Of a stretch of 64,000 nt of DNA, positions 4,620 to 44,022 are shown in pieces. Position numbers and translations under genes: made by a program. Positions within the stretch are counted from its first letter, which is position 1. Each line of letters starts with the position of its first letter. The notes under the pieces are model-generated. The model had not been told where the DNA came from, searched no databases, and was given only the letters and a program-made list of their open reading frames with translations. Source of the stretch: Glutamicibacter sp. JL.03c (GTDB lineage: Bacteria > Actinomycetota > Actinomycetes > Actinomycetales > Micrococcaceae); NCBI RefSeq assembly GCF_025854375.1, contig NZ_CP107575.1, forward strand, positions 1,116,001 through 1,180,000, written 5' to 3'.

Positions 4620-5672
4620 ATGGCAGCAAATAATGATCGAGAAAAGGCACTAGAGGCTGTCCTCGGCCAAATTGACAAGGCCTATGGCAAGGGCTCGGTC
4701 ATGCGCCTGGGCGATGAAACCCGTGCGCCTATTGAAGTGATCCCAACCGGTTCGGTCGCATTGGATGTCGCTCTGGGAATTGGCGGCCTGCCACGCGGAC
4801 GCGTCGTAGAAATCTACGGCCCGGAATCTTCGGGTAAGACCACCGTGGCACTTCATGCTGTTGCCAGCGCGCAGAAGGCTGGCGGCGTCGCCGCCTTCAT
4901 CGATGCTGAGCACGCCTTGGATCCGGAATACGCCAAGAAGCTCGGCGTAGATACCGATGCGCTTCTGGTTTCCCAGCCAGATACCGGTGAACAGGCACTG
5001 GAAATCATGGATATGCTCGTAGGCTCCGGCGCGTTGGACATCATCGTTATCGACTCCGTGGCAGCACTGGTACCACGTGCCGAAATCGAAGGCGAAATGG
5101 GCGATAGCCACGTCGGTCTTCAGGCTCGACTGATGTCGCAGGCTCTGCGCAAGATCACCGGTCGCCTGTCGGCATCCAAGACCACCGCGATCTTCATCAA
5201 CCAGCTGCGTGAAAAGATCGGCGTCTTCTTCGGCAGCCCTGAGACCACCACCGGTGGTAAGGCCCTGAAGTTCTACGCTTCGGTTCGTATCGATATTCGC
5301 CGTATTGAAACCCTGAAAGAGGGCACCAACCCGGTGGGTAACCGTACCCGCTGCAAGGTCGTCAAGAACAAGATGGCTCCTCCTTTCAAGCAGGCTGAAT
5401 TCGACATCCTCTACGGTCACGGAATCTCGCGCGAAGGCTCGCTGATTGACATGGGTGTTGAGCATAACCTGGTCAAGAAGTCCGGTGCATGGTTCACCTA
5501 CGATGGAGACCAGCTGGGCCAGGGCAAGGAAAATGCCCGTCGCTTCCTGCGCGATAACCCAGACCTGTCTGACGAACTCGAGCGTCAGATCTTGCAGAAG
5601 CTTGGCGTCCTGCCAAAGGACGAAGTTGAAGAAGACGAGACAGAACTGCGAGTTGTCGAGGGCGACAAGTAG
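4620..5672 (+). CDS. recA: Recombinase RecA
   Basis: RecA forms the nucleoprotein filament for homologous recombination and stimulates LexA self-cleavage. The 350-residue protein has Walker A GPESSGKT at residues 67-74, the second ATPase region ending in [11 protein letters not shown], loop L1/L2 sequences including [27 protein letters not shown], and a typical acidic C-terminal tail. The ATG at 4620 follows AAAGGTGAACC. The last base of its TAG is the first base of the recX start, so recA and recX are translationally coupled. An SOS box at 4433-4448 shows LexA control. Confidence 0.99.
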
Positions 5673-6541
5673 TGTCCTCAAACTTCCAACGACGTAGCGT
5701 CCGCCCCGGAAGCAAATCCGGGTCGGACGCTACGTCCGTTTCGAAAGAGTTTCAAGGAAGCTTTGACGACATGCCGGATTGGGCGAAGCCTGATCCACAA
5801 GAAATGCAGGACCGCGGTGAAAAGCCGAGAAGCGGTGGATCAACCGAATCGAGACTTCCTGAACACGGTAATCGCCGCATCATTATTCCTGCGCCGGCAG
5901 AGAGCAAAAAGCAGGAGAGCGTTGATGAACTGCGCGCGGCGATGGAACGCATCGTTGCCGCTCCGGCCCCAGAGAAGCCCTCGAAAAAGGAACGACGCGA
6001 GGCGCGCGAAGCCCGCAAGGTTGCCCGGGAATCTGGGGAGTCTGAAGAGCTGACTGGCGAGCAATGGCGGGAGAAGGCACGAGGCATCCTGCTGCGCCAG
6101 CTCACCGCAAGCGATAAGACCGCAAAGCAGCTCAAGGACAAGCTGCTGGAAAAAGACTGCCCGGAGGATATCGCCGACGAAGTCATCGAGCGATATGCAG
6201 AAATCAGCCTCGTTGACGACCAGCGTTTTGCCAAGTCCTGGGTCGTCACCCGGGCCCGCTCTCGAGGACTCGCACGTGGTGCAATCAAACATGAACTGCG
6301 TTCCAAAGGCGTAGACGATGAGCTCGCGGCCGAGGCCCTGGAACAAATTGATGATGAAGCCGAGGAACGGCGAGCCAGGGAACTGGTGCGCGCCAAGCTT
6401 CGTCCGGAATCAATGGGAGTGGACCGGGATAAGGCGCTGCGCCGCCTGGTCGGAATGCTGGGGCGCAAAGGCTATAACGGTTCTATGGCGTTCAAGGTAG
6501 CCCGTGAGGAGTGGGAAGAGCGATTCAGGTCTGTTGACTAG
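5672..6541 (+). CDS. recX: Regulatory protein RecX
   Basis: RecX binds the RecA filament and restrains its activity. Residues about 145-289 form the three-helix repeats of the family (LRQLTASDKTAKQLKDKL, YAEISLVDDQRFAKSW, GLARGAIKHELRSKG, and a last repeat in LVGMLGRKGYNGSMAFKV). The first 135 residues are charged, low-complexity and unlike most RecX proteins. The GTG at 5672 overlaps the recA stop by one base. An ATG at 5771 with AAGGAAG ten bases upstream is an alternative start that would place the large hairpin at 5691-5736 in the intergenic region. The end overlaps the convergent gene by four bases. Confidence 0.93.
   Translation: MSSNFQRRSVRPGSKSGSDATSVSKEFQGSFDDMPDWAKPDPQEMQDRGEKPRSGGSTESRLPEHGNRRIIIPAPAESKKQESVDELRAAMERIVAAPAPEKPSKKERREAREARKVARESGESEELTGEQWREKARGILLRQLTASDKTAKQLKDKLLEKDCPEDIADEVIERYAEISLVDDQRFAKSWVVTRARSRGLARGAIKHELRSKGVDDELAAEALEQIDDEAEERRARELVRAKLRPESMGVDRDKALRRLVGMLGRKGYNGSMAFKVAREEWEERFRSVD
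5691..5736 (+). promoter_or_regulatory. Large hairpin at the recA-recX junction
   Basis: A 13-bp perfect outer stem (5691-5703 with 5724-5736) and a 6-bp inner stem (5705-5710 with 5717-5722), separated by a single C-T mismatch and closed by an AGCAAA loop. It starts 19 bases after the recA stop, inside the annotated recX frame. No strong T-run follows. It looks like an attenuator or mRNA-stabilising structure that would set the recA:recX ratio. Confidence 0.7.
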
Positions 6542-34373: not shown

Positions 34374-35888
34374 ATGGCACGAAGCAATCTGTCCAGGCGA
34401 GTGGTCAGCGCAGCAGCGGTCCTGTCCTTCGGCCTGTTGAACGTGGTAGTCCCGGCCCAGGCGGTGTCGGGAGCGCAGATCCACGCAGGTGAGAATCTGG
34501 GGGAGGTCAGCATTGACGACACGGCGGGCGTGATCAATCGCGACCGGCTCATGGACGCCTTGGATGAACTGGATTTCAACGAACCGACCAACATCGCGGT
34601 GTATACACGCGACGGCGAGTATTCCGATGACATCAATACCAAAACGCTCGAATTCGCGCGCAAGAGCCATCCAGAATGGATCTCGGCAGAGGCCGAGGAC
34701 TATGGCGACTATTGGGCCGACGGGATGCTGATCATCACCTTGTCGGTCGAAGGCAGCGGGGACGGTCAAATTGGCACGTATTTTGGCGAGGATCGCAAAG
34801 TGACCACTAGCCAGATGGAAAGCATCCACGAGGCAGGGTATGACGACTTCAACCTGTCGCGGTGGACCGACGGCGTGATCGCGGTTGCCGACAAGGCATC
34901 GGCAATCATGAATCGGCCGTGGTACAAAAGTCCCGCCCTATGGTGGACCGTTGCGGCAGGTGGCGGCGGCACCGGTGTTGTCCTGGCGGCCACCGCCGCA
35001 GTGCGGTCTTCGCGACGCAAGAATTTTGCCAAGGATTTTTACGCGGGACGAGAGCATCTGACCAATGTCACGATGGACTTGGAAGAAACCGAGCTCGCCG
35101 CTAAGACGCTGCCCACCGGGTCAACCCACGCCGCGGAACTTGAACGCCGATTTGCCGACTTCATGTCGAAGTATCGTGAATCCTTCGATTCGCAAGCCAA
35201 GCTTGAAGCAGCGGAGAAGAAATACCGTTCCTCTAGCCGTGGCGTGGACGCCGCCAAGGAGTTCAAGGCCGAAGCGCAAAACCTTGATCTCACCGATGAC
35301 GCCATCATCGCTGCCGCCGCGCTCTACACCCGTTCAGCCTCGTGGGAAGAGGCCTGGCGCGCGCAGACGAAGCCGCTGGCAGGCGATCTCGCCCAAATCT
35401 CCACGCTGATCGATGACGTGGAGCCTGAGCTGATGGGCAGCGCGGCGGCGCTCGCCTCGTACCGTGAGTCGGCAACACAATCGCTGGAATCGCTGGGAAC
35501 CCAATTGAAGGCCGGACAAATCGACGTCGATGCGGCCTTGGATGAGCTCTCCGATCTTCGACGCGGGCTGACAGAGCGCTTGGACGACTTTGCCAAGGCC
35601 CAGATCGAAGCCTACGCGGAGAACGATGAAGAGAAGGAGCAGATGCGCAGGGAAATGGAACGCTCCCGCTATTCCACGGCGGGCCAGGGCCCGCGAGGAG
35701 GGACCATCCTGGACGTTGTGAATCCCGCATCGCTGTACTGGAGCGTGGGCGGCTACAACGCTGGCTACACTGCGGGAACCAACTCGGTGGATCAATCCCG
35801 CGCGTCCTCTAGTTCGTCCGGGTCGGTCTCAACCGGATACTCCGGTGGCGGCAGCTTCTCGGGCTCCGGCGGATCGTCGCGGTTCTAA
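34374..35888 (+). CDS. Exported membrane protein with TPM domain (DUF5129-like)
   Basis: A 504-residue envelope protein. A signal peptide ends near residue 29 (VVVPAQA). A TPM-type extracellular domain follows (about 40-175: NIAVYTRDGEYSDDINTKTLEFAR, DGMLIITLSVEGSGDGQIGTYFG), then one membrane helix (about 185-210), a long helical, coiled-coil-like cytosolic part (about 220-430) and a C-terminal Ser/Gly-rich tail, as in related proteins ending in GGSF/SGGGSSRF. TPM proteins are linked to membrane protein complexes or repair; the role here is unknown. It lies 10 bases before the phosphopantetheinyl transferase gene and is probably cotranscribed with it. Confidence 0.85.
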   Translation: MARSNLSRRVVSAAAVLSFGLLNVVVPAQAVSGAQIHAGENLGEVSIDDTAGVINRDRLMDALDELDFNEPTNIAVYTRDGEYSDDINTKTLEFARKSHPEWISAEAEDYGDYWADGMLIITLSVEGSGDGQIGTYFGEDRKVTTSQMESIHEAGYDDFNLSRWTDGVIAVADKASAIMNRPWYKSPALWWTVAAGGGGTGVVLAATAAVRSSRRKNFAKDFYAGREHLTNVTMDLEETELAAKTLPTGSTHAAELERRFADFMSKYRESFDSQAKLEAAEKKYRSSSRGVDAAKEFKAEAQNLDLTDDAIIAAAALYTRSASWEEAWRAQTKPLAGDLAQISTLIDDVEPELMGSAAALASYRESATQSLESLGTQLKAGQIDVDAALDELSDLRRGLTERLDDFAKAQIEAYAENDEEKEQMRREMERSRYSTAGQGPRGGTILDVVNPASLYWSVGGYNAGYTAGTNSVDQSRASSSSSGSVSTGYSGGGSFSGSGGSSRF

Positions 35889-35898
35889 ACGGAAACCC

Positions 35899-36570
35899 AT
35901 GCAGATTTTTTCCAAACTCCTGCCCGGGGCCGTACGCGTGGCCGAGACGCGTACCGAGCTTGATGACGGGCCTAGATTCTGGCAAGAGGATCAGTATGTG
36001 GCCGACGCGGTCCAATCCCGTCAACGGGAGTTCCGCACCGTGCGCATTTGCGCCCGTCAAGCGCTCGCCGAATTCGGGTACGGCGATTACATCCTCGTTC
36101 CCGATGAGCACCGTGCGCCGGTGTGGCCCCCGAATATCGTGGGCAGCATGACGCATGCAGTCGGACTGCGAGCCTCCGCCGTGGCCAGCACCGGTGATTT
36201 CAGCGGTATCGGCATCGACGCAGAGCCGCATCAGGCGTTGCCAGCAGAAGTGGCCGGCCTGATCCTGTTGCCGGAAGAACAGCGCTTGGCCGCTCGCCTC
36301 CAAGCAGAAGATCCCGGCATCGCTTGGGACAAACTGATGTTCAGCGCCAAGGAGAGCGTCTTCAAAACGTGGTATCCGCTGGCCCGGCGCTGGCTTGATT
36401 TTCTTGAATGCGAGATTACGGTCGGCCACGAGCCAGGAGCCTTCACCGCCCGGATCCTGCAGGCCAGCCCCGTGCACGGCGGCGTTGACCTGTCAGTGCT
36501 CTGCGGGACATGGATGAGCGAATCCCCAGTGGGCCGTGGCCTGCTGGCCACGGCGATCACCGTGCGATGA
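35899..36570 (+). CDS. 4'-phosphopantetheinyl transferase (EntD/PptT type)
   Basis: Moves the phosphopantetheine arm of CoA to a serine of carrier proteins. The 223-residue protein has the metal-binding Asp/Glu of GIGIDAEP (D107, E109) and the FSAKESVFKTW motif (K151-E152 ... K156), with the early motif RICARQALAEFG. The ATG at 35899 is favoured over an earlier in-frame start because conserved sequence begins there. It lies 2.3 kb from the large carrier-containing synthetase gene (38869-42819), its most probable target, and converges on ppk2 with 13 bases between the stops. Confidence 0.9.
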   Translation: MQIFSKLLPGAVRVAETRTELDDGPRFWQEDQYVADAVQSRQREFRTVRICARQALAEFGYGDYILVPDEHRAPVWPPNIVGSMTHAVGLRASAVASTGDFSGIGIDAEPHQALPAEVAGLILLPEEQRLAARLQAEDPGIAWDKLMFSAKESVFKTWYPLARRWLDFLECEITVGHEPGAFTARILQASPVHGGVDLSVLCGTWMSESPVGRGLLATAITVR

Positions 36571-36583
36571 AACTCGTAACGCC

Positions 36584-37480
36584 CTAGAACTCTTCGCCGT
36601 GGGTGATGACGTTTGCAGCGCGTCCCACGATTTGGGGATCGGGGGATCCGATCAGCTCATGATCCTTGCCCTTGTAGTCAAACAGGTTCAGCACGTGGCG
36701 CATCGCCTGAAGCCGGGCGCGCTTCTTGTCATTGGACTTCACCACTGTCCACGGAGCGTGATCGGTGTCGGTCTTGAGGAACATTTCCTTCTTGGCTTCC
36801 GTGTACTTCTCCCATTTATCCAGGGACTCGAGATCCATCGGGGAGAGCTTCCACTGGCGCACCGGGTCGATTCGCCGAATGGTGAAGCGGGTGAGCTGCT
36901 CGCTAGCAGAGACAGAGAACCAGAACTTCACCAAATCGATGCCCTCATCGACCACGAGCTTTTCGAAGAGCGGGGTCTGGTCCAGGAAGTGGTCCACCTG
37001 TTCCGGGGAGCAAAAGCCCATGACCCGTTCCACGCCGGCACGGTTGTACCAGGAACGGTCGAAGAGCACGATTTCCCCGGCTGAGGGGAAGTGCTGCACA
37101 TAGCGCTGGTAGTACCACTGGGAGGATTCGCGTTCGCTGGGTTTTTCCAACGCGACAACGCGGGCGCCACGAGGGTTCAGATGCTCGGTGAAGCGCTTGA
37201 TCGTTCCCCCCTTGCCTGCGGCATCACGGCCCTCGAAAACGATCATGATGCGCCGGCCGTTGGCCTTGACCCATTTCTGGAGCTTCAGGAGCTCGATCTG
37301 CAGGGCCCGCTTTTCAATCTCGTAGGTTTCGCGGTCGAGTTTCAGGGCGTAGGGGTAGTCTTCGCGCCAGGTGTCAACGACGGTGCCATCGGCGCGCAGC
37401 AGCAACGGATCATCGTCATCATCGTCGAGCACCGAATAGCCGCGGAAGGCATCATCGAGCAGGGGCATTTCTACACTCAT
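36584..37480 (-). CDS. ppk2: Polyphosphate kinase 2
   Basis: A 298-residue PPK2-family kinase that transfers phosphate between polyphosphate and nucleotides (class I acts mainly on ADP or GDP). It has Walker A GRDAAGKGG (residues 84-92), Walker B FDRSWYNRAGVE (D141) and the lid QWYYQRY. An acidic stretch DDDDDD near residue 18 is unusual. It is third in the minus-strand series synthetase, M1 peptidase, ppk2, 74 bases after the peptidase, which suggests ATP supply for polymer synthesis. That link is inferred from order. Confidence 0.93.
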   Translation of the reverse strand: MSVEMPLLDDAFRGYSVLDDDDDDPLLLRADGTVVDTWREDYPYALKLDRETYEIEKRALQIELLKLQKWVKANGRRIMIVFEGRDAAGKGGTIKRFTEHLNPRGARVVALEKPSERESSQWYYQRYVQHFPSAGEIVLFDRSWYNRAGVERVMGFCSPEQVDHFLDQTPLFEKLVVDEGIDLVKFWFSVSASEQLTRFTIRRIDPVRQWKLSPMDLESLDKWEKYTEAKKEMFLKTDTDHAPWTVVKSNDKKRARLQAMRHVLNLFDYKGKDHELIGSPDPQIVGRAANVITHGEEF

Positions 37481-37554
37481 GGTGGCAAGCCTAAATTTCG
37501 TGGATGAACTGATAATGAATGGATCGTGAACTGGACAACAGGCCAGCCGAACTC

Positions 37555-38856
37555 TTAGGCCGGGAAGCCCGGCAGTTCAAGATCGGTGAGCCAGGATTGC
37601 AGAATCTGATCCACATCGATGCCAGAAGCATGCTTCTTCAGATGGCTCGTGAACTTCTTCGTATCAACGCTGCCGTGCGCGTAGCTCGCCGTCCAATCGC
37701 GCAGCATCTCGTAGAAGGCCTCTTCGCCTAGCGCAATGAGCAATGCGTACAGGGTCAGCGCCCCGCGCTTGTAGACCCGATCGTCGAACATGTCCTTCGG
37801 GCCGGGGTCCCCGATCTGCAGATCCTGGGGCAGGGACTTGAGCTTCTCCCAGGCCGCGCGGGCTCGCTGCTTGATCGGCATGACCCCGGCGTGTTCCGAG
37901 TACACCCACTCGCTGAAGCAGGCGAAGCCCTCGTTCAGCCAGATGTCCTGCCATTGTGAGGGAGTCAGCGAATTGCCGAACCACTGGTGCGCGAACTCAT
38001 GGGCGATCAGGCGCTGGGCCTCCCACTGAAGCGAGAGATGATTGCGCCCGAAAATGCTCATTCCCTGGGCTTCCAGCGGAATCTCCAATTCGTCGTCGAC
38101 CACGACGATCTTGTAATTCCCGAAGGGGTAGGGGCCGAATTTGCGCTCGAAGATCTCGGCCATCTGGCTTTGCTTCGCGAAGGCTCCGCGCACCGGCAGA
38201 TCATTGCCTGGAACCGAGTAGGCCAGCAGGTGGTGCCCGCGGTCAAAGGCGATTTCGATGTAGCGCCCGATCTGCAAGGTCGCCAGATAGGTGGCCATGG
38301 GCTCGCGCTGTTCGTACACCCAGGTATTGCGGCTGGCCGAGCGGCTGTGCGAGATCAAGTCTCCATTGGCCACCACGCGGTAGCCCGCATCGGTGGATAC
38401 CTCGAAACGGTAGGAGGACTTGTGGCTTGGATGGTCATTGCAGGGGAACCAGGTCGAAGCTCCCACCGGCTGGCCCGAAACGAGGATGCCGTCGGTGAGC
38501 TCTTCCCAGCCCACCTCGCCCCATTGCCCGTTATCGACGCTGGGATTTCCACCGTAGCGCAGGTTCAATTCGATATAATCCCCGGCTTGGATCCGGTTCG
38601 GGGTCGAGATGACCACACGGTGGTGCTTTTTGCTGACCGAGACCTTGCGTCCCTGGCAAGTGGCCTTCATGATCTTCAGCCCATTGAGGTTCAGCGGGAT
38701 CTCGTTGAGATCTTCGAGCGCGCGAATGCGCAGCATGGCTCGGCCATCGAGGTGGTTGCTCGCGAGCTTCACCACGAGGTTCACATCGTAATGTTCCACG
38801 GTGTAGGTCGGGGAGCCGTAGTGCTTGGTGTACTCATCCAGTATGCGATGGTGCAT
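37555..38856 (-). CDS. M1-family zinc metallopeptidase
   Basis: A 433-residue gluzincin. The zinc ligands H286, H290 (HEFAH) and E309 (NEGF, 18 residues later) and the catalytic E287 are present; the N-terminal beta saddle runs over about residues 1-200. The exopeptidase GAMEN motif is not canonical (EAQGMS at 262-267), and the C-terminal helical domain is short or absent (usual M1 enzymes have about 850 residues). No signal peptide is seen. It starts 13 bases after the synthetase stop with a GAGGC site, so the two form an operon. It may degrade or trim the product, as the poly-lysine-degrading aminopeptidases do in Streptomyces. Confidence 0.88.
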   Translation of the reverse strand: MHHRILDEYTKHYGSPTYTVEHYDVNLVVKLASNHLDGRAMLRIRALEDLNEIPLNLNGLKIMKATCQGRKVSVSKKHHRVVISTPNRIQAGDYIELNLRYGGNPSVDNGQWGEVGWEELTDGILVSGQPVGASTWFPCNDHPSHKSSYRFEVSTDAGYRVVANGDLISHSRSASRNTWVYEQREPMATYLATLQIGRYIEIAFDRGHHLLAYSVPGNDLPVRGAFAKQSQMAEIFERKFGPYPFGNYKIVVVDDELEIPLEAQGMSIFGRNHLSLQWEAQRLIAHEFAHQWFGNSLTPSQWQDIWLNEGFACFSEWVYSEHAGVMPIKQRARAAWEKLKSLPQDLQIGDPGPKDMFDDRVYKRGALTLYALLIALGEEAFYEMLRDWTASYAHGSVDTKKFTSHLKKHASGIDVDQILQSWLTDLELPGFPA

Positions 38857-38868
38857 CGGTGCGTTGCC

Positions 38869-41800
38869 TCAGGCTTCCTGTGCGATGGGCTTCGTACATT
38901 GTGTATCCGGGGTGGTGTTCCAGCGTACTGCCGGATTGCCGCGCCAGTAGGTATTGGCAGGCAGAACCTCGCCGCGAAGGACCAAGCTGGCCGGGCCGGT
39001 GGTGGTGCCCTCGGAGATCCGCGCCGCTGGCAGGATCACGCTATGCGGGCCGAGCGTCGCCCCTGCTCCCAGGGTGACCGCGTCAATGGACATGATGCGG
39101 TCGTGGAACAGGTGGGTTTGCAGCACCGAGCCGCGGTTGACCGTGGAGTGATCCTCCAGGGTGACCAGGTCGGCCTCCGGCAGCCAGTAGCTTTCGCACC
39201 ACACTCCATGGCCGATCGTGGCGCCCTGGGCGCGCAGGAACCAGACCAAGGCCGGGGTTCCGCTAGCGAGGCGGGCGAACCACTGGGCGCACACCAGTTC
39301 GGTGAAGGAATCGACCATTTCGGTGCGCCAGATGAACGAGCTCCACAGGGTGTGCTCGCCGGGGCGGATCGCGCCGACCACCAGCCATTTGGCGGCGACC
39401 GCGATGACGGCAGCCAACGCGCCGGCAAGCACCAGCACCGCGCCGGAGAGCAGCATGCTGGCCCACACGCCGGCGTAGGTGGCCAGGGCGGCAAGGGCCC
39501 ACAGCACGCCACCGGCGATGGCCACGGTCGTGAAGACCGCCAGGGAACGGGCCAGCTCCCAGAAGGAACGCATGATCTTCAATTTCGGGGCCGGACGGTA
39601 GGTGCGCTCCGACTCGGCTTCCACCGTGGTGCGGCGCAGCTTGTTCGGCGGGGAACCGATCCACGACGTCCCGGCCTTCATCTTCTTCGGCGTGGCCGAG
39701 AGCACCGCAATCAGCGATCGCTTTGGCACGCGGCGTCCTGCATGCAGGATGCCGGAGTTGCCCAAAAAGGCCTTCTTGCCCACGCGCACCGGCGCGATAT
39801 GCATCCATCCGCCGCCCAGTTCGTAGGAGGCCACCATGGTGTCATCGGCCAGGAAGGCGCCGGAGGAGATGGTGGTCATCTTCGGGATCAGCAGGACCGT
39901 GGAAATTTCCACATCGCGTCCCACCTTGGCTCCCAAGAGGCGAAGCCAGATCGGGGTGAACAGCGAAGCGTAGAGCGGGAAGAGCTGATCGCGGGCGGCA
40001 TCCAGGACCCGCTCGGTCGCCCAGGCCTGCCAGCCCACGCGCGAGGTGACCGGATGCCATCCTTCGACCAAGCCGATCGACAGCAAGCGCACCACGATGA
40101 CCGTCAGGATCATGCTCGACAGGAACCAGACCATTGCCGCCACGATCACCGCCGGGATGAAACGCCAGCCGATTTCTGCCAGCGACTGGGCCGGCCGCAG
40201 GATCGGGGTGACCGAGAGGAAAGCGAGAACCACCGGGATCCACTGCCACAGGTTCAGCAGGATCGAGGCGAAGCCGGCGAGCACGCGAGGCATCCTGCGG
40301 TAGGCCGGTTCTGCTTCGGGCCACTTGGGCTTGGCCTTGGACTGCCGGGTCGCAGGGGAGCCGGCGTACCGGGAGCTGCCGCGGGCACTTCCGTAGACGG
40401 CCGAACCGGCCTCGACGATCGTGCCCTCGCCGATCACCGCTCCGGGGGCCAAGGTGCTGCGCGCGCCGATCGATGCGCGGGCGCCAACCTCGATGGCCCC
40501 CACGTGCACCTTGTCGCCGTCAATCCAGTAACCGCTGACATCCACCTCGGGCTCGATGGTGGCGCCCGGGCCCACGGTGAGCATTCCGGTCACCGGCGGC
40601 AGGGTGTGCAAGGTGGCTGTGCGGTCGATCTTCGCGCCAAGCATGCGTGCGTACCACGGCAGCAGCGGCGCGCTGGAGAGCGAAATCGGATCCACTACAT
40701 CGGCTGCGTGCTGCGCCAGCCACAGGCGCAGGTGGACCGAACCAGAGCGCGGATAGACCCCGGGCTCCAGCCCGCGCAGCAGCAGCCTCGTGGCCAGGAT
40801 GGACAGCGCCATGCGCCCGAGCGGGGTGGCGAAGAGAAGCCATAATCCGGCGATCACGTACCACGGGGTGGGCAATGGGTCGTCAAAAATTCCCATGGCC
40901 GCCAGGGCCACGTGCCCGATCATCAAATAGGTGAACCAGCGCAGCCCCGAAAGGATGAACAGCGGGAAAGCCACCAGGGTCTGCGCCACTTGGGTGATGC
41001 GCTTGGTGCGCGCCACGGTCCGCGGTTCCACCGGCTCGCTCGTGGCTTGCTGGCCGCCGAGGAATTCAACCAGGGCTCCGAAGCGCGGGTAGTCATAGAG
41101 TTCGGCCACCGTCAGATCCGGATAGCGCACGCGCAAGGCGGAGACGAGCTGGGCGGCCGAGAGGGAACCGCCGCCGGCGGCGAAGAAGTCGGCGTCTACC
41201 CCGGATACAGGTGCGCCGAGCGCTCCCTGCCATGCTTCGGCAATGAATTCTCCCACCTCATCCAGTGGCGGCAGCTCGCCGGAGGATTCATTCTGCTCGG
41301 CACCGGGCAGTGGCCAGGGCAGGGCATTGCGGTCGACCTTGCCGCTGGTTTTCATCGGCAGGTTGTCCATGACGGCCAGGATCGGCACCATGGGCGCCGG
41401 CAGGTCCTCCAGCAAGGCGGTGCGGGCCGCGGACAAGTCGTAGTCTTCAGGCGCCTGGAGGTAGCCGACCAGGATCTTGTTTCCGGTGGCGGTTTCGCGC
41501 ACGGCCACCGCGCCGGCGGTAACCCCGGCCAGCGAGTTGAGCGCGGCATCGATTTCGCCCAGCTCGATCCGTCGGCCGCCGATCTTCACCTGGTCGTCAA
41601 CACGGCCGATGAAGATCAGGCCTTGGCTGTCGTTGACCACCATGTCGCCGGAGCGGTAGGCGCGCTCCCAGCCCAGGGTGGGCATCGGCGCGTACTTTTC
41701 GGCATCCTTTTCTGGATCCAGGTAGCGGGCCAAGCCCACGCCGCCGATGATCAGCTCGCCGGATTCGCCCTCGGCCACCGGAATGCCCTGGGGGTCGACC

Positions 41801-42819
41801 ACGGCCAGATCCCAGCCGGCCAGCGGCAATCCGATGCGCACCGGCAGGCTGCCGTCCATGGTGGCTCCGCAGGCCACTACGGTCGCTTCGGTTGGCCCGT
41901 AGGTATTCCAGACTTCGCGGCCCTCGGTAGCCAGGCGGCCGGCCAGTTCTGGCGGGCAGGCCTCGCCACCGAAAATGAGCAGGCGCACCGAGTCCAGGGC
42001 CTGGGCTGGCCACAGGGCCGCCAAGGTGGGGACGGTGGAGACCGCGGTGATCGAGCGGGCAATCAGCCAAGGGCCGAGGTCCATGCCGCTGCGCACCAGG
42101 GCGCGCGGGGCGGGTACCAGGCAGGCGCCATTGCGCCAGGCGATCCACATTTCCTCGCAGGAGGCGTCGAAGGCGACCGAGAGCCCGGCCAGGACCCGGT
42201 CGGTGGTGTTCAGCGGGTCGCTGGCCAGGAACATCTGCGCTTCGGCATCGACGAAGGCCGCCGCGGAACGATGGGAGACCGCGACGCCCTTGGGTTTGCC
42301 GGTGGAGCCGGAGGTGAAGATGATCCAGGCGTCATCGGACAGGTTCGGCAGGCGCGGGGACGCGAACGGCTTGGGCCGTGCGGCATCCACCACGATGGTA
42401 TCGATGCCCTTGACGATGCCGGCCACTTCGGCTTCGGTGAACACCGTTTTGGCTCGCTCGTCGGGATCGTCCGCATCCACCGGGACATAGGCGGCGCCGA
42501 CCCAGATGATGGCCAGGATCCACTCGTAGAGGTGGCGCGTGCCCGATTCAACGCGCACGCCGATGCGGTCGCCGGCACCGAGGCCGTGCTCGTGCAGGCG
42601 GCGGGCCTTGGCCTTGACCTCTTCGATTAGCTCGGCGTAGCTTTCTGCGCGCTCGCCGTCATCGATGGCGGGCGCGTCAGGGTGGGCCTCGGCGGTGGCC
42701 TGCAGGATGTCTACCAGCGTGCGGGCGGCCGGGGCCAGAGCGCCGGAAGGAAACTGGGGGGCGTAGATTTCTCGATCCGGCGCAAGAGTTTGATCGTTGT
42801 CCATGATGAACGGATCCAT
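38869..42819 (-). CDS. Pls/PosA-type membrane nonribosomal peptide synthetase
   Basis: A 1,316-residue single-module synthetase. Residues about 30-500 form an adenylation domain (FTSGSTGKPKG at 168-178, YGPTE at 307-311, GRVDDQVKIGGRRIELGEI); about 515-590 a carrier domain with phosphopantetheine serine S552 in FFAAGGGSLS. The rest has about six membrane helices around three soluble parts with left-handed beta-helix hexapeptide repeats (VGPGATIEPEVDV, ASIGARSTLAPGAVIGEG, GATLGPHSVILPAARI). The layout and length match epsilon-poly-lysine synthetase. Specificity residues D218 A219 E222 S261 I282 G284 T306 V314 V315 K494 resemble lysine codes. The ATG at 42819 abuts a GAAGGG; ATG 42804 is possible, TTG 42873 unlikely. 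Confidence 0.9.
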   Translation of the reverse strand: MDPFIMDNDQTLAPDREIYAPQFPSGALAPAARTLVDILQATAEAHPDAPAIDDGERAESYAELIEEVKAKARRLHEHGLGAGDRIGVRVESGTRHLYEWILAIIWVGAAYVPVDADDPDERAKTVFTEAEVAGIVKGIDTIVVDAARPKPFASPRLPNLSDDAWIIFTSGSTGKPKGVAVSHRSAAAFVDAEAQMFLASDPLNTTDRVLAGLSVAFDASCEEMWIAWRNGACLVPAPRALVRSGMDLGPWLIARSITAVSTVPTLAALWPAQALDSVRLLIFGGEACPPELAGRLATEGREVWNTYGPTEATVVACGATMDGSLPVRIGLPLAGWDLAVVDPQGIPVAEGESGELIIGGVGLARYLDPEKDAEKYAPMPTLGWERAYRSGDMVVNDSQGLIFIGRVDDQVKIGGRRIELGEIDAALNSLAGVTAGAVAVRETATGNKILVGYLQAPEDYDLSAARTALLEDLPAPMVPILAVMDNLPMKTSGKVDRNALPWPLPGAEQNESSGELPPLDEVGEFIAEAWQGALGAPVSGVDADFFAAGGGSLSAAQLVSALRVRYPDLTVAELYDYPRFGALVEFLGGQQATSEPVEPRTVARTKRITQVAQTLVAFPLFILSGLRWFTYLMIGHVALAAMGIFDDPLPTPWYVIAGLWLLFATPLGRMALSILATRLLLRGLEPGVYPRSGSVHLRLWLAQHAADVVDPISLSSAPLLPWYARMLGAKIDRTATLHTLPPVTGMLTVGPGATIEPEVDVSGYWIDGDKVHVGAIEVGARASIGARSTLAPGAVIGEGTIVEAGSAVYGSARGSSRYAGSPATRQSKAKPKWPEAEPAYRRMPRVLAGFASILLNLWQWIPVVLAFLSVTPILRPAQSLAEIGWRFIPAVIVAAMVWFLSSMILTVIVVRLLSIGLVEGWHPVTSRVGWQAWATERVLDAARDQLFPLYASLFTPIWLRLLGAKVGRDVEISTVLLIPKMTTISSGAFLADDTMVASYELGGGWMHIAPVRVGKKAFLGNSGILHAGRRVPKRSLIAVLSATPKKMKAGTSWIGSPPNKLRRTTVEAESERTYRPAPKLKIMRSFWELARSLAVFTTVAIAGGVLWALAALATYAGVWASMLLSGAVLVLAGALAAVIAVAAKWLVVGAIRPGEHTLWSSFIWRTEMVDSFTELVCAQWFARLASGTPALVWFLRAQGATIGHGVWCESYWLPEADLVTLEDHSTVNRGSVLQTHLFHDRIMSIDAVTLGAGATLGPHSVILPAARISEGTTTGPASLVLRGEVLPANTYWRGNPAVRWNTTPDTQCTKPIAQEA

Positions 42820-43053: not shown

Positions 43054-44022
43054 TTAGGGCAGCAAAATGACCTTGCCGGTGGTGGCACGCGATTCCAGCG
43101 CGGCGTGGGCGGCACCTGCCTCGGCCAGCGGGTATTGGGCGCCGATGCGCACATCGATCTTTCCGGTGGCCACCCAGCCGACCATATCCCCGAAGCGCCA
43201 ATGCATCTCCTGCTGCGAGGTGAGGAAGTCCGCGAGCTTCGGACGGGTGACCGTCAACGATCCGCCGGCGTTCAGGCGCTGCAGGTCGAAAGGCGGCACC
43301 TGGCCGCTGGCTCCGCCGAAGAGCACCAGCGTGCCGCGGCGGCGCAGGGCCGCCAGCGAGGTTTCGAAGGTGTCCTTGCCGATGCCGTCGTAGACCGCGT
43401 TGACGCCTTGGCCGCCGGTGACCTTCTCGACGGTCTCGGCGACCTGCTCGTAGTCCACCACGTAGTCGGCCCCGGCTGCCTTGGCCAGGTCCTTCTTCTC
43501 CTGGGTGGAGGCTGTGGTGATGACGGTAGCTCCCTTGAGCTTGAGCAGCTGGGTGAGGATCAGCCCAACGCCGCCGGCGCCGGCGTAGGTGAGGATGACA
43601 TCGCCGTCGTGCACCATGTAGCTGGAGTGGACCAGATAGTGGGCGGTCATCCCCTGCAGCGGCAAGGCGGCGGCGATGTGCAGGTTCACGGAGTCGGGGA
43701 CCTTGGCGGTCAGGTCGGCATCCACCAGGGCATACTGCGAGTAGCCGGCCTCGCCGGAGGCGGTGGCCACCCGATCGCCCAGCTTGAAGTTCTGGACGCC
43801 TTCGCCAATCTGCTCCACCACTCCGGCGAATTCGGAGCCCGGGACGAAGGGGTAGTCCACGGTGTAGACGCCGCTGCGCTGATAGGTTTCGATGAAGTTC
43901 ACGCCGGTGGCCGCGACCTTGACCAGCAGCTGGCCGGGGCCCGGGGTGGGGACCGGGAGGCGGGTTGGCTGCAATCCGGTGGCGTCGGTGGGTTCGTTGA
44001 CCACGATGGCTTGTTGCTGCAT
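43054..44022 (-). CDS. qor: NADPH:quinone oxidoreductase, zeta-crystallin-like
   Basis: A 322-residue medium-chain reductase lacking zinc-binding residues. Motifs are TGVNFIETYQRSGVY, PGSEFAGVVEQIG, the Rossmann AGAGGVGLILTQLLK that binds NADPH, and PRTRP-like ending VTRPKLADFLTSQQE. It reduces quinones one electron at a time or other enones, protecting against oxidative stress. AGGAG lies nine bases before the ATG. It stands alone between the synthetase gene and argC and is divergent from argC. Confidence 0.92.
   Translation of the reverse strand: MQQQAIVVNEPTDATGLQPTRLPVPTPGPGQLLVKVAATGVNFIETYQRSGVYTVDYPFVPGSEFAGVVEQIGEGVQNFKLGDRVATASGEAGYSQYALVDADLTAKVPDSVNLHIAAALPLQGMTAHYLVHSSYMVHDGDVILTYAGAGGVGLILTQLLKLKGATVITTASTQEKKDLAKAAGADYVVDYEQVAETVEKVTGGQGVNAVYDGIGKDTFETSLAALRRRGTLVLFGGASGQVPPFDLQRLNAGGSLTVTRPKLADFLTSQQEMHWRFGDMVGWVATGKIDVRIGAQYPLAEAGAAHAALESRATTGKVILLP

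Follow-up and report, generated by a model that had tools for sequence, protein, structure and literature searches.

A predicted epsilon-poly-L-lysine operon with a neighbouring phosphopantetheinyl transferase and a linked polyphosphate kinase 2 in Glutamicibacter sp. JL.03c

What does a series of genes for a large adenylating synthetase, a peptidase and a polyphosphate kinase produce in Glutamicibacter sp. JL.03c, and what role does the kinase have in it? The series lies in a 64,000-nucleotide stretch of the 3.59 Mb genome (contig NZ_CP107575.1, positions 1,116,001 to 1,180,000), here called the window, in which all coordinates are counted. An earlier note on this DNA proposed a poly(amino acid) synthesis operon of three minus-strand genes with gaps of 12 and 74 bases, and the open reading frames lie exactly so. 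Absent from that note is a fourth gene, pptA, that lies 13 bases past the ppk2 stop in convergent orientation; its true start is likely the ATG at 35899. The genes and the segment concerned are:

38869..42819, minus strand: pls-like gene, predicted epsilon-poly-L-lysine synthetase of 1,316 amino acids (aa), with an adenylation (A) domain, a carrier (T) domain and six transmembrane helices with three intervening domains
37555..38856, minus strand: pld, M1 zinc peptidase of 433 aa with the zinc motif HEFAH...E, predicted PldII-type partner
36584..37480, minus strand: ppk2, class-I-type polyphosphate kinase 2 (PPK2) of 298 aa, from a lineage linked to Pls
37409..37426, minus strand: acidic run DDDDDD, residues 19-24 of PPK2; the linked lineage has an acidic run at this place in common
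35845..36570, plus strand: pptA, 4'-phosphopantetheinyl transferase (PPTase) like PptT, Npt and EntD, convergent with ppk2

Each of the three minus-strand genes encodes a complete or nearly complete member of a curated family, so the find is not due to chance. From the observed gene content, family membership, substrate pocket identity and recurring linkage, together with a PPK1 and a second, class-III-like PPK2 encoded elsewhere in the genome, we lean towards an operon for epsilon-polylysine that has an activating enzyme of its own and in which PPK2 recycles ATP at the expense of polyphosphate.

The synthetase (P0001) matches the Pls/PosA family model TIGR02353 over its full length with 636 bits (cut-off 423). 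Its Pfam domains at E <= 0.001 are AMP-binding, PP-binding and Hexapep only, with one carrier domain and with neither a condensation nor a thioesterase domain at that threshold. The substrate pocket, at positions placed by the PheA numbering, reads D A E S I G T V V K and is identical at 10/10 aligned positions to the closest solved chain, the Pls A-domain 7wew (614 bits). This chain comes from Streptomyces albulus Pls (PMC10522769). The sequence DAESIGTVVK recurs in 158 of the 165 synthetase matches of the loci examined, some genes being counted more than once; five of the remaining pockets differ at one position, and two matches of one distant synthetase at four. Six hydropathy peaks (residues 608-626, 656-674, 850-868, 891-909, 1093-1111 and 1123-1141) lie in the carboxyl-terminal part, for which an AlphaFold2 model of residues 596-1316 from 19 sequences (pLDDT 84, pTM 0.85) has helix pairs alternating with stretches rich in beta-strands. 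Family model, hydropathy and structure model together give six transmembrane helices separating three tandem domains, C1 to C3. This agrees in secondary structure with the model of six bent helices and three beta-helices described for PosA, the delta-poly-L-ornithine synthetase of the same family from Acinetobacter baumannii, which differs in its substrate pocket and in being encoded there by a single-gene operon (PMC10522769). Foldseek gave only weak matches of the carboxyl-terminal model to hexapeptide-type acyltransferases in the PDB (TM-score by query at most 0.15 in the 50 matches listed). The Pls-like architecture put forward in the earlier note is thus borne out, as is its suggested kinship with S. 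albulus Pls and the Pls/PosA family; a non-polymerising A-T-hexapeptide protein is ruled out by the TIGR02353 and 7wew matches and by the lysine pocket.

Since its pocket is that of S. albulus Pls, the synthetase likely produces epsilon-poly-L-lysine (epsilon-PL), and we predict with good confidence that the locus encodes the synthesis of this polymer. The earlier wording of a cationic or other homopoly(amino acid) can be narrowed accordingly: the pocket speaks for epsilon-PL as the cationic member and makes another homopolymer unlikely. The family does include synthetases of delta-poly-ornithine, poly-DAB and poly-DAP (PMC8117764, PMC10522769), and the product here is a predicted one. There is nonetheless very little chance that the enzyme makes one of these other cationic isopeptides or is inactive, its frame being intact, its pocket that of S. 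albulus Pls and its gene accompanied by a peptidase partner, which PMC8117764 describes as characteristic of Pls but not of the three other synthetases.

Two further kinds of synthetase were met in the survey. A second Pls-type enzyme with 47-49% identity and the pocket DAESIGTVIK is found in loci L052, L053 and L054 (genomes G022, G005 and G010, respectively) with no pld nearby; G005 and G010 have a normal pls operon elsewhere. Locus L055 (2692-6624) encodes a distant Pls/PosA-family synthetase with 32% identity and the unusual pocket DFEYNGTVTK.

The peptidase (P0002) belongs to the M1 family, has both of its Pfam domains and has 6a8z as nearest solved relative. The M1 zinc site HExxH-x18-E was read in the sequence, and inspection by eye reveals no obvious signal peptide at the amino terminus. 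We take it as a putative PldII-type partner, with a predicted activity of epsilon-PL hydrolysis. A relative of the peptidase is present downstream of pls in all 80 named loci (29 from Micrococcaceae, 51 from outside), which are the best 80 of 584 relatives, with up to 10 kb of flank examined, shorter in some; it lies 2.2 kb off in L129 and closer in the others. The pairing in the earlier note thus holds and is already in print: PMC8117764 describes a pls-peptidase operon for Streptomyces and Corynebacterium and reports pls homologues from both Glutamicibacter and Arthrobacter, and PldII is described as translationally coupled to pls (PMC9223678). As in the pls-pldII operon of S. albulus and C. 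variabile, the window combines the same synthetase architecture, a lysine pocket and a peptidase gene directly downstream (PMC8117764, PMC9223678). It differs by ppk2 after the peptidase gene and by the convergent PPTase gene, neither of which is mentioned in the consulted portions of these two papers. The pls gene of the window very probably belongs to the published coryneform set (Glutamicibacter, Arthrobacter and others), or is an orthologue of its members; for that set the text consulted describes the peptidase neighbour, and not PPK2 or PPTase (PMC8117764). The pls homologues of the genus and the pls-peptidase operon are therefore known already, and the PPK2 and PPTase partners extend this system and do not make a new kind of it.

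PptA (P0005) matches the Pfam families 4PPT_N (83.5 bits, cut-off 27) and ACPS (49.9 bits, cut-off 25). Against the models of PptT, Npt and EntD it reaches 158, 147 and 44 bits, below the cut-offs of 365, 370 and 169, and it is thus a relative of these enzymes and none of them by name. The genome has two ACPS matches, PptA and a 142-residue frame taken as AcpS, and two carrier domains, that of Pls and a 108-residue frame taken as the fatty-acid carrier protein. One of each being in the cluster, PptA probably serves Pls by activating its carrier domain. In the genus, the second PPTase adjoins ppk2 in 10 of the 14 genomes with pls and lies elsewhere in the other four; G008 has two, one of them roughly 4 kb past ppk2 and the other elsewhere, and G014 has a further one elsewhere. 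Three of the four genus genomes that lack pls have the AcpS-like match only. A PPTase is present in the flank of 25/29 named loci of Micrococcaceae, 5/8 of Microbacteriaceae, 1/1 of Intrasporangiaceae and 0/42 of the others, a count made at E <= 1e-5 over the flank examined, so that the gene is not always adjacent, and with a profile whose seed includes six of the loci themselves. In the three loci of the Glutamicibacter clade the PPTase was found with P0005 and not with the profile of the others; two kinds of PPTase thus adjoin pls. They are distributed by genus, with the window (35845-36570) on one side and L105, L177, L200 and others on the other, a pattern suggesting that one kind was exchanged for the other while selection retained a PPTase close to pls.

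The kinase (P0003) matches TIGR03707 with 382 bits (cut-off 302) and has the Walker motifs FEGRDAAGKGG (A) and FDRSWYNR (B). Its nearest solved relatives are 4yeg and 3czq, the class I PPK2s of Francisella tularensis and Sinorhizobium meliloti, both listed as phosphorylators of nucleoside diphosphates (NDPs), and an asparagine after Walker B is given as the signature of the class (PMC8776046). The corresponding residue in the window, Asn146, aligns with that of the S. meliloti chain. We therefore assign the enzyme to the class I type and predict that it phosphorylates NDPs with polyphosphate (polyP). In a tree of 76 PPK2 sequences the label "linked", for copies associated with pls, requires 4 changes against a mean of 24 after shuffling. 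A single linked lineage of 46 sequences is not rejected (p-AU 0.54, with a far outgroup removed and the copy of G218 added after the first tree). This grouping is present in only 12% of 200 bootstrap trees, so that a single lineage is not demonstrated. Membership was assigned by the tree wherever the sequence was available, identity of at least 70% being an unreliable guide, as a 70% match (G150, L217) falls in an unlinked lineage. A general Micrococcaceae PPK2 present by accident is not favoured, the linked sequences standing apart from two unlinked lineages in the tree. The class I asparagine is conserved in 41/46 members of the linked lineage and replaced by Thr in four and Ser in one; the replacements belong to genus group g40 (L200, L201, L202, L205, L206), whose nucleotide preference may differ.

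The distribution of this lineage follows that of pls in part of the family. We searched 295 Micrococcaceae genomes, sampled evenly from a larger group, with thresholds of 1e-150 for a Pls-type match, which includes the second synthetase type, and 1e-60 for PPK2; the tables are complete for the genomes with matches, and gene positions refer to the matches listed, among which short or weak ones may be missed. Pls-type matches are found in 159 genomes, PPK2 matches in 220 and the linked lineage in 45 (44 near-complete, and that of G168 with a stop). All 45 have a Pls-type match, and the lineage appears in 0/136 genomes without one, among the matches listed and by comparison by eye. The linked PPK2 gene lies at most 8.5 kb from pls on the same strand in 44/45 genomes, and at most 3 kb away in 41/45; in G218 (genus group g24) it is on a different contig. 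The 44 loci, namely the window, 13 others of Glutamicibacter and 30 from elsewhere, span nine genus groups (g1, g23, g34, g35, g37, g38, g40, g41 and g44). Two gene orders occur: ppk2 follows pld in five named loci and precedes pls in two, Arthrobacter rhizosphaerae (L120) and an Arthrobacter metagenome-assembled genome (L139), where its match stops 61 bases before that of pls.

Within the genus Glutamicibacter, pls is present in 14 of 18 genomes, and the same 14 carry a linked PPK2 downstream of pld, within 161 bases in 13 of them and 2.8 kb off in G005. The four genomes without pls (G003, G009, G015 and G017) have neither the linked PPK2 nor a close pld. No trace of the cluster is seen between the flanking genes in G003, G009 and G017; in G015 the usual flanking genes enclose residues 17-193 of pptA and 2-88 of pls, separated by 10 bases.

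Particular arrangements were noted in three genomes. In G005 (L050, 13485-15091) two frames resembling an ABC transporter (ATPase and permease, by eye) separate pld from ppk2, and are possibly an addition for export or self-resistance. G260 has two pls-pld loci, one of them (L208, G260:C1:3749000-3767999) with a PPK2 of an unlinked lineage 2.6 kb upstream on the opposite strand. In G168 (L206, G168:C1:636000-653999) the pls and ppk2 matches are interrupted by stops and that of pld is short, a pattern due either to joint decay of the cluster or to sequencing errors.

The pathway that we propose would start with the loading of phosphopantetheine onto the Pls carrier domain by PptA. Pls would then adenylate L-lysine, converting ATP to AMP and pyrophosphate, and its membrane-bound domain would link the lysines through their epsilon-amines and export the chain. 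Cleavage of the polymer by the M1 peptidase would achieve self-protection or control of length. The dedicated class I PPK2, if it works in this direction for Pls, would rephosphorylate NDPs at the expense of polyP; its ADP would be formed from AMP by an adenylate kinase, which we assume, or by the class-III-like PPK2, and the ATP spent to AMP would thereby be recovered. The minus-strand genes of the window may be co-transcribed; a promoter scan of the locus gave no result and no terminator-like site was found on the minus strand between pld and ppk2, both of which are weak evidence either way. ATP is reported to limit epsilon-PL production in S. albulus (PMC10157215, PMC10012588), where ATP rose by 28.9% and epsilon-PL by about 15% when ppk was overexpressed, more with polyP6 (PMC10157215), and PPK2 plus PAP gave a 21% rise (PMC10012588).

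Several facts weigh against this reading. The AMP released by Pls is not a preferred substrate of class I PPK2. When ppk2, pap and pls were combined in S. albulus, the outcome did not significantly exceed that of ppk2 + pap or of pls by itself (PMC11274744). Cultures of C. variabile yielded no epsilon-PL, even though the C. variabile gene is functional in S. coelicolor (PMC8117764), so the operon of the window may also be silent. The kinase is moreover an optional partner: PPK2 lies in the flank of 7 of the 80 named loci, 7/29 in Micrococcaceae and 0/51 elsewhere, and none is found in the examined flank of 22/29 and 51/51 loci, respectively. A wider linkage in Actinomycetota was thus not found in these 51 loci, and the same negative holds for the four pls-pld loci examined in the order outside Micrococcaceae (L033, L034, L036 and L038). 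In Micrococcaceae itself the linked lineage is beside pls in 0/16 other pls loci examined, that of G218 included, and four of these 16 (G078, G100, G154 and G211) belong to genus groups that otherwise have it. The co-conservation of all three genes implied by the operon of the earlier note consequently does not hold in general (7/80 named loci; 45/159 family genomes with a Pls-type match). A PPTase gene on the opposite strand separates pld from ppk2 in several genus groups, so a single transcript is not general.

Adjacency has in addition to be judged against the synteny of the site, whose edges in the window are:

43054..44022, minus strand: quinone-oxidoreductase-like gene (qor), flank used as synteny control
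34374..35888, plus strand: DUF5129 gene, flank at the other edge of the site

The unrelated qor is at most 5 kb from pls in 21/29 named Micrococcaceae loci and in 13/13 Glutamicibacter loci examined. As it is an even more frequent neighbour of pls than PPK2, adjacency alone is weak evidence. The kinase could then be an inherited neighbour of an otherwise similar epsilon-PL operon, serving nucleotide or polyP balance in general and untied to Pls, as the many pls genes without PPK2 beside them would also allow. The remnant in G015 (L242, G015:C6:172000-183000, 5222-6023) fits in here: it has the appearance of a scar left when a single deletion took out the cluster, so the joint absence in this genome is not an independent event and the evidence for co-loss is weakened. 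We regard such hitchhiking as unlikely, since qor is retained in 4/4 Glutamicibacter genomes without pls and the linked PPK2 in none, and since the lineage was not met in the family genomes without a Pls-type match, among the matches listed. Gene order argues in the same direction: the two Arthrobacter loci have ppk2 upstream of pls and no qor in the examined flank, and in Paeniglutamicibacter terrestris (L100) ppk2 adjoins pld with qor 6.5 kb off.

The kinase may also act in the reverse direction or as a balancer, making or trimming polyP as a polyanion that neutralises the intracellular polycation or feeds an acid-stress response while the polymer is produced. Class I PPK2s vary in direction, and the enzyme of C. 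glutamicum strongly prefers polyP synthesis (PMC8776046); the polymer predicted here is a polycation, and an acidic tail marks the linked PPK2. This role is quite improbable in our opinion, because 4yeg and 3czq are listed with the NDP phosphorylators and PPK1 is available in the genome for polyP synthesis. ATP recycling is thus favoured both over this role and over hitchhiking.

The acidic tail is a trait of the lineage: a run of three or more D/E that precedes a proline close to the amino terminus is found in 46/46 linked PPK2s against 1/30 others (L229), where some of the 30 align from a later start and show no such run in their upstream parts. A tentative and rather doubtful extension of ATP recycling is that the lineage is specialised in Micrococcaceae as the energy partner of Pls, with the acidic run tethering PPK2 to Pls or to the nascent polycation. 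The locus would in that case be a natural polycation factory powered by polyphosphate, in which a store of polyanion is consumed at the membrane both to make the polycation and to balance it.

The polyP-driven recycling of ATP has been engineered with PPK2/PAP in S. albulus (PMC10012588, PMC10157215, PMC11274744). That system was built by hand with foreign genes, whereas here the kinase gene occurs naturally near pls, in nine genus groups. No description of a natural pls-ppk2 or pls-PPTase neighbourhood was found in the literature searched, outside which most subscription papers lie; within it, the impression in the earlier note that the kinase link is undescribed stands.

Epsilon-PL is sold as a food preservative. 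ATP reportedly limits its yield, and polyphosphate kinases have been introduced by engineering to raise it. A PPK2 lineage kept beside pls in several genus groups, often with a carrier-activating enzyme, is a ready gene set in this respect, and PptA points to the enzyme that would load Pls in a bacterium where no other secondary carrier domain was found. The locus also offers a way to test, in unicellular hosts, what the polymer does biologically. Its gene content suggests a self-contained, polyP-fuelled form of a known pathway.

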